The notes under the pieces were generated by a model. It was not told where the DNA came from. It saw nothing but the letters and a program-made list of their open reading frames with translations, and did not search any database. The position numbers and the translations under genes were made by a program. Below are positions 5,503 through 21,376 of a DNA stretch of 64,000 nt, in pieces (positions within the stretch are counted from its first letter, which is position 1; each line of letters opens with the position of its first letter). This DNA is from Oscillospiraceae bacterium (GTDB lineage: Bacteria; Bacillota; Clostridia; UBA1381; UBA9506), in assembly GCA_015068855.1 (NCBI GenBank), contig SVJS01000001.1, forward strand, positions 62,001 through 126,000. The letters run 5' to 3'.

Positions 5503-6258
5503 ATGTTCAAGAAAGTATTATGCTTTTCACTGGCCGTTATGATGTGCTTTGCACTGGTTGCTTGCGGCGGTGAAAAAACCAACACTGACGGAAAAACTTA
5601 CACAATTGCAACTGATACAACGTTCCCGCCTTTTGAATATCAGGATGAAAACGGCGACTATGTTGGTATCGACATCGAGCTTTTAGCTGCCATCGCAGCA
5701 GACCAGGGCTTCCAGTATGAACTGCAACCCTTAGGCTTCGACGCTGCTTGCGCTGCTTTGGAATCCGGTCAGGCTGACGGTGTTATCGCCGGCATGAGCA
5801 TTAAGCCTGAAAGAAAAGAGAAATATGATTTCTCCGATCCTTATTTTGATTCTGCTGTTATCGTTGCTGTTAAGGCTGATGCAGAATATGCTTCTTTGGA
5901 AGACTTAAAGGGTCAGACCATTGCTGTTAAGAATGGTACCGAAGGCGCTTCCTATGCTGAATCCATTGCTGCTGAATATGGCTTCACAGTTAAGACCTTT
6001 GAAGATTCTCCCACCATGTACATGGAAGTTACCACCGGTAACGCTGCTGCTTGCGTAGAGGACTACGAAATCATGCGTTTTGGCGTTGAGAACGGTAACG
6101 GCCTGAAAATGGTTGGCGAAAAGAACGTTGCTTCTTCTTATGGTTTTGCCGTACAGAAGGGTCAGAACCCCGAACTTCTGGAAATGTTCAACAAGGGTTT
6201 TGCTAACTTAAAAGCAAACGGCAAATATGATGAGATCTTAGCTAAATATTTACAGTAA
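5503..6258 (+). CDS. Polar amino acid ABC transporter, substrate-binding lipoprotein
   Basis: 251 residues. An N-terminal signal ends in the lipobox LVAC (Cys about 21), so the protein is anchored outside the membrane. The mature part is a normal type 3 solute-binding protein: YTIATDTTFPPFEY, VGIDIELLAAIA, a GVIAGMSIKPERK segment with the amino-acid-carboxylate Arg region, YFDSAVIVAV, and the usual C-terminal ANGKYDEILAKY. This is closest to glutamine/histidine binding proteins; the ligand is not certain. AGAAAGG precedes ATG 5503. Permease and ATPase genes follow after a stem-loop, in the usual order. Confidence 0.9.
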   Translation: MFKKVLCFSLAVMMCFALVACGGEKTNTDGKTYTIATDTTFPPFEYQDENGDYVGIDIELLAAIAADQGFQYELQPLGFDAACAALESGQADGVIAGMSIKPERKEKYDFSDPYFDSAVIVAVKADAEYASLEDLKGQTIAVKNGTEGASYAESIAAEYGFTVKTFEDSPTMYMEVTTGNAAACVEDYEIMRFGVENGNGLKMVGEKNVASSYGFAVQKGQNPELLEMFNKGFANLKANGKYDEILAKYLQ

Positions 6259-6272
6259 GATTTTGAGTCTTT

Positions 6273-6305
6273 GCAGGCGCATTGAGACTCCCTCAGTGCG
6301 CCTGC
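6273..6305 (+). terminator. Intercistronic stem-loop after the binding-protein gene
   Basis: GCAGGCGCATTGAG pairs with CTCAGTGCGCCTGC (14 pairs, one G-T). It lacks a strong T run, so it is more likely a partial terminator or a 3'-end stabiliser that raises binding-protein mRNA over permease mRNA. Confidence 0.6.
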
Positions 6306-6420
6306 TTTGAACAGACCTTGCCTGCACCCGACAGGTTGCGGGCTGGCTTTCGTCGTTGGTCAATTGCCTTCGACTCTTTTTTTGCTTTATAGCAACATTG
6401 TTCGTTAGGAGTTATGATGC

Positions 6421-7098
6421 ATGGATTTTTTTAAAGTATTTGTTGAGGTTTTTCCCTCCTTGCTTAAAGGTCTGGGGGTAACCGTTCAGGTCACCGTCAT
6501 TTCCTTGACTATCGCTTGTCTTCTGGGTATGACTGCATGCTTGATGGGAATGTCAAAGAGCTGGGTTCTTTCGGGAATATCCAAGATTTATGTCTGGATT
6601 ATTCGCGGAACGCCTTTTATTGTGCAGCTTTTCATCGTATATTTTGGTATTCCGCAGTTTATCCAGCAGCTTGGCATCAATTTCAGATTAACCTCGTTCC
6701 AGGCGTCAGCCATCACGCTGAGCTTAAACGCCGGCGCTTATTTGTCTGAAATTTTCCGTGGCGGTATTCAGGCTGTGCCGGTGGGTCAGATGGAGGCAGC
6801 CCGCAGTTTAGGTTTGTCTCACGGTCGTGCAATGATTAAGGTCATTCTGCCACAGGCCCTGCGCATTTGCATTCCGTCCTTGGGTAATCAGTTCATCATT
6901 ACCTTAAAGGATTCCTCGCTGGCTGCAACGATCGCCCTGACAGAAATTGTTTACATGGGTAAATTGTACGTGGGTCGCACTATGCAATCCTTTGCCACAT
7001 ACATGATTATTGGCTTGATGTATTTGGTTATCATTACAATTTTAACCAAAATTTTGAATGTGATAGAAAGGAGATTTGCCCATGGAACCGAAGGTTAA
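6421..7098 (+). CDS. Polar amino acid ABC transporter, permease
   Basis: 225 residues, HisM/GlnP type inner-membrane subunit. Several hydrophobic helices surround the conserved EAA loop ([24 protein letters not shown]) that docks on the ATPase. [15 protein letters not shown] is typical of this family. ATG 6421 follows TTAGGAG. It overlaps the ATPase gene by 17 bases, so the two are translationally coupled. Substrate inferred to be that of the upstream binding protein. Confidence 0.92.
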
Positions 7099-7813
7099 AA
7101 TCAGCAATCTCCATAAATACTTTAGAAAAAATGAGGTTCTTCGTGGTATTGATTTAGAGGTGTATGAAGGAGAAGTTGTGTGCATCATTGGGCCCTCCGG
7201 CTCCGGTAAGTCTACGTTGCTTCGCTGCATCAACCTGCTGGAAAAACCCACAGATGGTGAGATTGTCGTTGATGGCTTCACCATCACGGACCCCAAAGCT
7301 GATGTTAATAAAATCAGACGGAATATCGGTATGGTGTTCCAGCAGTTTAATCTGTTCCCCCATTTAACCATTGAGGAAAACATCACCATGGCACCTGTGG
7401 ATAACAAAATGCAGGATAAGAAAACCGCCAAGGAAAACGCCGCCAAGCTGATTGAGCGCGTCGGTCTTTCTGATAAGCTTTCTGCTTATCCGTCCACCTT
7501 ATCCGGCGGCCAGCAACAGCGTGTTGCCATTGCCCGTGCCCTTGCCATGATGCCAGATGTTATGCTCTTTGATGAGCCTACCTCCGCCTTAGACCCTGAA
7601 ATGGTCGGCGAGGTTTTAGCCGTTATGAAAGAGCTTGCAAACGATGGTATGACCATGATTGTTGTCACTCACGAAATGGGCTTTGCCCGCGAGGTTGCCG
7701 ACAGAGTTATCTTCATTGATGACGGTGTTATCATGGAACAGGGAACACCTGAGGAAATTTTTGCAAACCCGAAAAATCCCCGCACTATCGACTTTTTGAA
7801 CAAGGTTCTCTAA
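7082..7813 (+). CDS. Polar amino acid ABC transporter, ATP-binding protein
   Basis: 243 residues, GlnQ/HisP type. All ATPase motifs are present: Walker [11 protein letters not shown]-loop [10 protein letters not shown], signature LSGGQQQR, Walker [15 protein letters not shown] and the switch His in THEMGFA. ATG 7082 is preceded by AAAGGAG inside the end of the permease gene. It completes a binding protein-permease-ATPase operon that ends at a strong terminator. Confidence 0.94.
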
Positions 7814-19016: not shown

Positions 19017-19772
19017 TTAATATTCGGTCACATTCTTCAAAAAAGCGGCAATACGTTCATTTTCTGTGTTGCTGAAAATCTCCTCAGGTGTTCCCTCCTG
19101 CAAAACAACGCCGTCATCCATAAACAGAATTTTGTCGGAAACCTCTTTGGCAAAGTTCATTTCATGGGTAACAATCACCATGGTGGTGTCCTGTTTTGCA
19201 AGCTGCTTGATAACCTTCAAAACCTCGCCCGTAAGCTCAGGGTCAAGAGCGGAGGTGGGTTCGTCAAAGCAGAGAATATCGGGGTTAAGCGCTAAGGCTC
19301 TGGCGATGGCAACACGCTGCTGCTGACCGCCGGAAAGCTGGCAGGGATAGCTTTCCACCTTATCGGAAAGCCCTACCTTTTCAATGAGTTCAAGCGCCTT
19401 TTTCTCGATGTTTTCCTGTGTATCAAACTTTAACAAAGAGGGCGCTAATGTAATATTTTTCAAAACATTATACTGTGGAAACAAATTAAAGGACTGAAAC
19501 ACCAATCCGAAATGCAAACGCATGTCACGGATATGCTGGTCGCTCATTTTATTCTTTTCCGCACCGTCATAAATCACTTTATCGTGTACAGAAATGGTGC
19601 CACCTTCTGCAAATTCCAAAAAATTCAGGCAACGAAGCAGGGTTGTTTTACCGCTGCCGGAAGACCCGATAATGGAAAGCACATCGCCTTTTTCAATTGA
19701 AAAATTGATTCCCTTCAAAACTTCGACCTTGCCGAAGCTTTTAACCAGGTTCTTAACTTCTAATATAGGCAT
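19017..19772 (-). CDS. Amino acid ABC transporter, ATP-binding protein
   Basis: 251 residues, GlnQ-like. Walker [11 protein letters not shown]-loop [10 protein letters not shown], signature LSGGQQQR, Walker [15 protein letters not shown] and the switch His in THEMNFA are intact. It is the third gene of a minus-strand binding protein-permease-ATPase operon and starts four bases after the permease stop. The insert around residues 70-80 ([17 protein letters not shown]) is common in this subgroup. Confidence 0.93.
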
Positions 19773-19776
19773 AGTT

Positions 19777-20484
19777 TTAACTCCTGAAATAACTCATTTT
19801 CTTTTCGATATAGCCAAACAAAAGTGTTAAGACGCCGCAGAACAACAGGTAATATACGGCTGTGTAGAACAACGGCCACAAAAGTCCGTCCGACTTAACG
19901 AACTTCTGGGCATTCCAGATGATTTCGTAAACCATAACCACACGGGCTAAGGACGTATCCTTAACCAATGTAATAATTTCGTTGCTCATAGGCGGCACAA
20001 TCCGCTTGATAACCTGAAGCAGGACAATTTTGAAGAAAATCTGCGTTTTCGTCATGCCCAGAACCTGCCCCGCCTCATACTGACCACGGCTGATGGACTC
20101 AATTCCGCCACGGTAAATTTCCGAAAAGTAGCAGGAATAGTTGATGACAAAAGCAACCATAACGGCAAAAAAGCGGTCAAAAACCTGCCAGGTTGCAAGC
20201 CACTCTATCAGAAAGCCGGATGCAGCGCCCGTTGCAAGCAGTTTACTTGCCCAGGTACCAATAAGCCCCGGTCCGTAATAAATCACAATCAATTGAAGCA
20301 TCAAGGGCGTTCCGCGAATGATCCACACAAAAACCTTCACAATCCATTTCACGGGACGAATACGGCTCATAGAGCCAAAGCAGATAAGTAGCCCAAGGGG
20401 TAAGGAAAACAACAAAGTGAGCGCAAACAATCTGCAAGTTACAAGCATGCCCTCAAACAGTTTAAGAGAGACTTCCACAAACAT
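19777..20484 (-). CDS. Amino acid ABC transporter, permease
   Basis: 235 residues, HisM/GlnP type. Conserved [18 protein letters not shown], the EAA loop [17 protein letters not shown] and the KDTSLARVV segment are present. Between the second and third conserved helices it carries about 25 additional residues rich in Gly/Ala/Trp compared with the permease at 6421, also common among the GlnP homologues of Clostridia. It would take its substrate from the protein encoded at 20567. Confidence 0.9.
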
Positions 20485-20566: not shown

Positions 20567-21376
20567 TTATTTAACCATTGCATTGGCCATTGTCAGGTCA
20601 ATGATGCATGCATCGCAGGAACCGCTGGTAACCTCTAAGAGAGCATCGGTCTGTGTGCCAACTTCTGTTACATTAGCAAATGCGTTTTCTTCTGCAGCAG
20701 CAGCGCCGGCGGAACCGGATTCAACAGCAAAGGAAAGCTCTGCCATGGAAGCAGCATCAGCATAGTCTGCTGCTTTATCGGCTGCCATAACAACAACCTG
20801 TGCGTTCTTAACATAAGCAGCGGAACAGCTTGTGTTTTTAAGAACATCTTCAGAAATGGTCATACCGTTCCAGATACAGTCAATGGCCTTGGATTCCAAA
20901 GCAACGAACTTGTTGTCCCAGTCAATTTCAACGAACTCAGCAGTAACACCCAGCTTCTCGCAAACAGCCAGAGCAAATTCTGTGTCAAAGCCGGTCCAGT
21001 TGTCTTCTGCATCCTTAAAGTTCATGGGCTCGTAATCGGTGATACCGATAACCAGCTTGCCGTTAGCCTTAACATAGTCAACGTCAGCTAAGGTTGCCTC
21101 TTCCTCTTCTGCAGGAGCAAGGTCAGATAAGGTCAGTTCATACTTAGCGGCCAGTTCGTCTAAAACGCCGGCTTCTTTCAGTTCAGCCATGTAACCGTTG
21201 ACAACAGCTGTCAGGTCAGAACCTTTTCTGAAACCGATGCCGTACTCTTCGCTGGTCAGTTCGCAAGCGATGGCCAGATCAGCATCTGTGCCTGCCGGTG
21301 TTGTTTTAGCGGCACAACCTGCCAAAGCCAGAACCAGCATGATTGAGATCAATGCCATTGATAAAATCTTTTTCAT
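20567..21376 (-). CDS. Amino acid-binding lipoprotein with circularly permuted order
   Basis: 269 residues. Signal peptide and lipobox LAGC (Cys21) are normal. The mature chain is not in the usual order for a type 3 solute-binding protein: residues 29-86 (SEEYGIGFRKGSDL... VLDELAAKYEL) correspond to what is normally the C-terminal end, then an acidic linker (about 89-96), then YVKANGKLVIGITDYEP (101-117), which normally follows the lipobox, on to CIIDLTMANAMVK at the stop, which is normally the hinge return before the GxxYADLxxxxxLxSEEYGIGFRKG segment. The order was judged against the general family pattern from memory. All pieces seem present once, so a working fold is plausible. Ligand likely a polar amino acid. 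Confidence 0.85.
   Translation of the reverse strand: MKKILSMALISIMLVLALAGCAAKTTPAGTDADLAIACELTSEEYGIGFRKGSDLTAVVNGYMAELKEAGVLDELAAKYELTLSDLAPAEEEEATLADVDYVKANGKLVIGITDYEPMNFKDAEDNWTGFDTEFALAVCEKLGVTAEFVEIDWDNKFVALESKAIDCIWNGMTISEDVLKNTSCSAAYVKNAQVVVMAADKAADYADAASMAELSFAVESGSAGAAAAEENAFANVTEVGTQTDALLEVTSGSCDACIIDLTMANAMVK

Follow-up and report, generated by a model that had tools for sequence, protein, structure and literature searches.

A naturally permuted type 3 solute-binding lipoprotein in Clostridia

Natural circular permutations of proteins are usually single, ancient events. In type II binding proteins, both canonical ends lie in lobe 1, close together in the fold class. Here, we divide such proteins into lobe 1 as far as the first hinge crossing (N1), lobe 2 (L2), and the strand returning through the hinge together with the last helices (CT), so that the canonical order reads N1-L2-CT. 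Naturally permuted binding proteins are already known in other subfamilies. For example, TpMglB-2 (Tp0684), the "Type Ic / cluster Bc" protein, is a type I lipoprotein that is naturally permuted and for which glucose binding and conformational change have been measured (PMC4990184). Permutation has also been described among divergent groups of glycine-betaine-binding proteins (PMC2395249). In addition, a permuted protein engineered in connection with biosensors, cpLAO-BP, still binds lysine, with a Kd of about 107 uM versus 3 uM, or ~36-fold more weakly (PMC5087393). No description of a natural permuted type 3 binding protein was found in our literature search, which covered mostly sources other than subscription journals.

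Our analysis establishes such a protein, encoded at 20567-21376 of the window, by which we mean the whole 64,000-nucleotide stretch of DNA, from a gut bacterium, that was analyzed. With type 3 / cluster F proteins (PF00497; GlnH, HisJ, TmArgBP, LAO), it has in common the family, the two-lobed fold with a two-strand hinge (as predicted), the signal peptide, and neighboring PAAT permease and ATPase genes. Unlike them, it is arranged as CT-N1-L2 rather than N1-L2-CT, with its ends and lipid anchor predicted to lie in lobe 2. Like TpMglB-2, it is a naturally permuted, lipid-anchored ABC binding protein of a kind found mostly in treponemes and Gram-positive bacteria, but TpMglB-2 has a type I sugar-binding fold, a three-region hinge, an added fourth crossover, and a poorly conserved permuted part (PMC4990184). 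The best profile, PDB, and Foldseek matches of our protein are type II amino acid-binding proteins, which places it outside type Ic / cluster Bc. Glycine-betaine-binding proteins are type II proteins related by circular permutation, as here (PMC2395249), but they belong to another subfamily and are deeply divergent (below 24% identity), whereas the proteins described below have canonical relatives that are 72-78% identical, and the events are recent and recurrent. cpLAO-BP belongs to the same family but is artificial and had one of its two hinge linkers deleted (PMC5087393), whereas the natural proteins, with their cuts in lobe 2, are predicted to have both hinge strands intact. Finally, the tandem domains of GlnPQ (6h30) contain the internal order L2-CT-N1 and offer a plausible model of an intermediate, but each of those domains is canonical, whereas here we find single-domain permuted proteins along with fusions of permuted units (L119, L120, L238, and L239, where L numbers denote loci of relatives). 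What is new relative to these precedents is that the permutations are recurrent and recent and that their cuts keep to one lobe.

The gene lies on the minus strand, with its start codon at 21376 and its stop at 20569-20567, which corrects the orientation given in an earlier sequence-only reading of this DNA. Its 269-residue product reads signal peptide, CT, linker, N1, and L2, and the coordinates that follow are all on the minus strand. The lipoprotein signal peptide (residues 1-21, 21314-21376) ends in the lipobox LAGC, and its lipidated Cys21, which is invariant across 25 aligned relatives, bears out the normal lipobox previously claimed and marks the product as a bacterial lipoprotein. The CT segment, the family's usual C-terminal part, comprises residues 29-86 (21119-21292) and includes a long strand, residues 34-50 (21227-21277), that forms the edge of lobe 2. 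An acidic linker (residues 87-97, 21086-21118) connects the former C and N termini, as judged from the translation and alignment. The N1 segment (residues 98-198, 20783-21085) holds lobe 1 and hinge crossing 1 (strand 189-198), and L2 (residues 199-269, 20570-20782) holds lobe 2 and the new C terminus, ANAMVK; the limits of both were drawn from Pfam, homologues, and an AlphaFold2 model.

The order of these segments is evident from profile and structure-based sequence searches. The protein matches PF00497 with 88.7 bits against a cut-off of 26.4 (whole-protein E 3.6e-25), and as the sequence-only reading had anticipated for the two parts taken separately, the match is out of order. Specifically, the first part of the mature chain corresponds to positions 97-129 of the 132 in the model (E 0.021 alone), while residues 109-237 correspond to positions 2-117, such that the end of the model is matched before its start. 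A phmmer search of the PDB likewise returned two inverted pieces of TmArgBP, with residues 99-268 matching 6svf 3-173 and residues 32-79 matching 6svf 177-226. Rotating the sequence restored full-length collinear homology, both to a canonical relative at L038 (72% identity) and to 6svf, where a single match of rotated positions 2-222 to 6svf 3-226 scored 106.8 bits, compared with 72.0 and 16.2 bits for the split pieces. The window also provides an internal control, as had been proposed. The binding protein encoded at 5503-6258 on the plus strand, next to a permease (6421-7098) and an ATPase (7076-7813), has the order N1-L2-CT and matches PF00497 2-130 in normal order. It was the only other match in the genome, which held no canonical member of the subfamily to which the permuted protein belongs.

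The permuted order is conserved. A search of related Clostridia recovered CT-N1-L2 proteins with the identical cut and intact reading frames in seven other species (64-86% identity), from separate assemblies and projects (L129/L032, L188/L033, L130/L037, L035, L189/L036, L034, and L190). The dN/dS ratio against the nearest relative was 0.107. Furthermore, pN/pS ratios indicated that CT, N1, and L2 are each constrained, with the joining linker often least constrained and giving the highest value for most pairs. By these sequence comparisons, the gene is under purifying selection and appears functional. The window belongs to a draft genome of 1.25 Mb in 21 contigs, and the relatives come mostly from metagenome assemblies, yet an order created by misjoined tandem copies during metagenome assembly, or by decay into a pseudogene, is scarcely credible: eight species in independent assemblies share the order and cut, the frames are intact with a lipobox, purifying selection is strong, and permuted genes also lie on single contigs as large as chromosomes (L215, 2.97 Mb; L232, 3.26 Mb).

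The moved segment also resembles its canonical counterparts too closely to have come from elsewhere. Capture of a segment was raised for TpMglB-2, the type I protein with a poorly aligning permuted part (PMC4990184), and for the protein studied here it would mean that the N-terminal segment was acquired from an unrelated gene and converged on the CT fold. However, 55-65% identity between the first segment and the CT of canonical proteins in its own subfamily is common, which excludes a chance match, and after rotation the protein can be aligned over its full length with canonical relatives (64-72% identity). We rejected a foreign origin on these grounds and consider it very improbable.

The permuted gene sits in an importer operon of the type expected for its family. 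It is followed by the gene for its cognate ABC permease (19777-20484, minus strand), which is of the PAAT/HEQRo type (TIGR01726 above cut-off), and by that for the cognate ATPase (19017-19772, minus strand), whose best matches are TcyN/GlnQ family models. Both are conserved neighbors, and together a HEQRo-type permease and a GlnQ-type ATPase identify a PAAT-type importer. A VanW-domain gene (22167-21574) lies upstream and is not counted in the system. The permease is directly 3' of the permuted gene in 76 of 80 cases. Permease and ATPase genes adjoin permuted and canonical homologues alike, and permeases beside canonical relatives are 60-76% identical to the one in the window. Because canonical relatives adjoin the same genes, the permuted protein would substitute for a canonical one in a like operon.

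Family and operon make amino acid binding likely. Nevertheless, the ligand is perhaps not an ordinary amino acid, because the permuted protein lacks the arginine of the G-M-T-x-T-x-E-R motif, which we take to be the classical alpha-carboxylate-binding residue of SBP_bac_3. Valine occupies this position in the protein and its clade as well as in 53 canonical relatives, and its presence in both chain orders hints at an unusual ligand.

Structure prediction suggests that the permuted chain adopts the normal fold. An AlphaFold2 model, built with natural homologues from an alignment that included canonical sequences, had a mean pLDDT of 89.4 and a pTM of 0.78, with low-confidence residues confined to the signal peptide and tether. 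It shows the type II / cluster F two-lobe fold with two continuous crossing strands: by DSSP, strand 189-198 forms crossing 1, and strand 34-50 runs unbroken through crossing 2, presumably starting in lobe 2 according to the family topology. Since the permuted chain starts ahead of strand 34-50 and stops after lobe-2 helix 261-268, the ends are predicted to lie in lobe 2 with both crossings intact. This revises the earlier proposal of termini near the hinge, in that they fall inside lobe 2, ~10 residues before the crossing. Foldseek, which needs sequential order, aligned no more than ~175 columns between the model and its top hits, with a TM of ~0.5 over the N1-L2 part of ArgBP, and among PDB chains, neither sequence nor fold searches turned up the CT-N1-L2 order over a whole length. 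A relative with the order L2-CT-N1 (L131) was also confidently predicted (mean pLDDT 87.8, pTM 0.80). The linker is short (about 11 residues) and domain swapping may mimic permutation, which would allow the CT of one chain to complete the N1-L2 of another in an oligomer. This arrangement seems improbable, however, given the confident monomer model, the proximity of the old ends in the fold class, and the monomeric state of TpMglB-2 (PMC4990184). Taken together, inverted profile order, rotation, conservation in eight species, purifying selection, and the predicted fold make us highly confident in what the sequence-only reading had claimed: that 20567-21376 encodes a naturally circularly permuted substrate-binding lipoprotein, to which we assign a PAAT-type ABC importer and a normal two-lobed fold with the ends in lobe 2.

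Permuted orders also occur in many other Clostridia. Counting distinct proteins only, segment profiles of all fetched relatives identified 153 canonical, 49 CT-N1-L2, and 30 L2-CT-N1 proteins along with one L2b-CT-N1-L2a, although loci were partly chosen with permuted-junction queries, so these ratios do not equal prevalence. In an even sample, ~63 of 341 Clostridia genomes (20 family codes) carry a frame in which a single match runs from CT into N1, and the fetched members of this set were confirmed as permuted. Our search of plasmids gave only one partial relative, with an N1-L2 match alone. The single protein of the third type (L232, a 292-aa ORF on a 3.26-Mb contig) has lobe 2 divided between both termini. 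Four more proteins are fusions of L2-CT-N1 units with a permease, containing two units (L119, 1,152 aa from about 2319; L120, 1,151 aa; L239, 772 aa) or three (L238, 1,000 aa). The chains of L119 and L120 also include the ATPase, placing nearly an entire ABC importer in one polypeptide. Frames at L165 (501 aa), L166 (537 aa), and L116:3889-5400 (504 aa) far exceed one permuted L2-CT-N1 unit; that of L116 clearly runs on into a permease, and those of L165 and L166 probably do. An L2-CT-N1 relative of the 5503-6258 protein (L115:3019-3855, minus strand; 51% identity) is cut after the first lobe-2 helix. At one position next to a related operon, the binding protein is canonical in certain genomes and permuted in others, as judged from a comparison of L038:6860-7753, L052:6746-7633, and L045:6331-7119 with L039, L043, L046, L067, L068, and L072. 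A minus-strand ORF of 286 aa at the edge of L056 encodes a secreted protein with three ~40-residue repeats (YAPDGR...VGWYDYP) and then a canonical-order binding domain truncated by the end of the locus.

Phylogenies indicate that these arrangements arose repeatedly. In a tree built from rotated proteins of the window's subfamily (68 rows), four permuted clades fall within canonical diversity: A1, which contains the window's protein (8 rows, support 100/99), A1' (4), B1 (5), and B1' (2). The AU test rejected a single clade for A1 and A1' (p 4.6e-8) as well as for B1 and B1' (p 8.9e-15). For the sister subfamily, whose operon resembles that at 5503-7813, the tree requires eight changes (seven if L232 is left out); well-supported branches force at least four of them, and the A-type and B-type rows were each rejected as a single clade. 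Across the trees, a cautious minimum is at least eight independent rearrangements. The trees give no direction, and we took the canonical order as ancestral, since the majority of proteins and all solved relatives have it. Once rotated, permuted proteins and their canonical counterparts were 72% (window/L038), 78% (L191/L144), 74% (L131/L024), 76% (L141/L030), 73% (L176/L250), and 76% (L168/L245) identical.

Every observed cut lies in lobe 2 and spares the hinge. The CT-N1-L2 proteins of five groups have one common cut loop after the last lobe-2 helix (AMVG|EGTS and FVAA|NEGLKIL are examples), the cut in L2-CT-N1 proteins falls after crossing 1 and before the first strand of lobe 2, and L232 is cut farther into lobe 2, after GTTGDIAITNYLEG. 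A small sample of 30 loci drawn with an L2-CT query, which is able to pick up lobe-1 cuts, comprised 28 canonical and 2 L2-CT-N1 proteins, with no cut in lobe 1. We rejected the idea that permuted proteins have a shorter membrane tether: medians of 2.5 and 1 versus 19 residues were obtained from segment models that start at different structural points, and lengths from the cysteine to the first ordered element look similar in permuted and canonical proteins.

The sequences also suggest how permutation may come about. Most likely, tandem copies fused in frame to give N1-L2-CT-N1-L2-CT and were then trimmed on either side within lobe 2, down to the orders that we see. If the leading N1-L2 and the final CT were lost, CT-N1-L2 would be left. 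The old ends, both in lobe 1, would thereby be joined by the short acidic linker, and the new ends would open in lobe 2, in the loop that connects its last helix with the strand leading to hinge crossing 2. Because both hinge strands are predicted to be intact, ligand-induced closing would be expected to proceed as usual. The lipid anchor would now tether lobe 2, and we would expect ordinary ligand capture and delivery. Rearrangements of this kind took place repeatedly in Clostridia, always with the ends in lobe 2. The earlier suggestion of tandem duplication followed by loss of the outer halves fits several observations. The linker resembles a former C-terminal tail (AAKYELTL) running into a former mature N terminus (ADVDYVKANGKL), canonical copies lie side by side at L058 and L088, fused copies occur among relatives, and an L2-CT-N1 protein matches the GlnPQ tandem in a single stretch. 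Yet no N1-L2-CT-N1-L2 intermediate turned up among the relatives for the window's lineage or for the CT-N1-L2 order.

Whether recurrence reflects selection is a separate matter. One possibility is that the permutations are adaptive, with anchor and ends on lobe 2 helping the protein dock on, orient toward, or leave the permease, or shielding binding from tether strain. Repeated origins that invariably put the ends in lobe 2, permuted units fused directly to permeases, and the tether advantage suggested for TpMglB-2 (PMC4990184) are consistent with this reading, but canonical and permuted forms coexist in close relatives with the same operon, and on balance we find it rather doubtful. We are similarly hesitant, and only tentatively suggest, that permutation is a recurrent, selected evolutionary mode of type 3 binding lipoproteins in Clostridia (at least eight times, with ends and anchor on lobe 2) because lobe-2 anchoring alters how the protein meets or leaves its permease. 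We lean modestly toward the permutations being neutral: with adjacent ends in lobe 1, duplication and truncation would often yield a working protein, and the cuts would simply show which loops can accommodate ends. Proteins of both orders, permuted and canonical, serve like operons, share conserved residues, and are under purifying selection; tandem copies occur in relatives; and tether lengths from the cysteine to the fold are not clearly different given the segment boundaries. Nevertheless, confinement of all cuts (at least eight events) to lobe 2 would not be expected if cutting were spread over all loops, although the searches were partly seeded with lobe-1 sequence.

Repeated, recent permutations whose canonical relatives are 72-78% identical and serve the same importer type amount to a natural experiment. 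The effects of chain order, end position, and the anchored lobe on binding, closing, and transport become directly testable. Natural cut sites that spare the hinge may be useful to biosensor design, where an engineered version cut at the hinge lost affinity (PMC5087393). More generally, order-sensitive annotation and domain searches misread permuted proteins such as those that recur among the binding lipoproteins of Clostridia.
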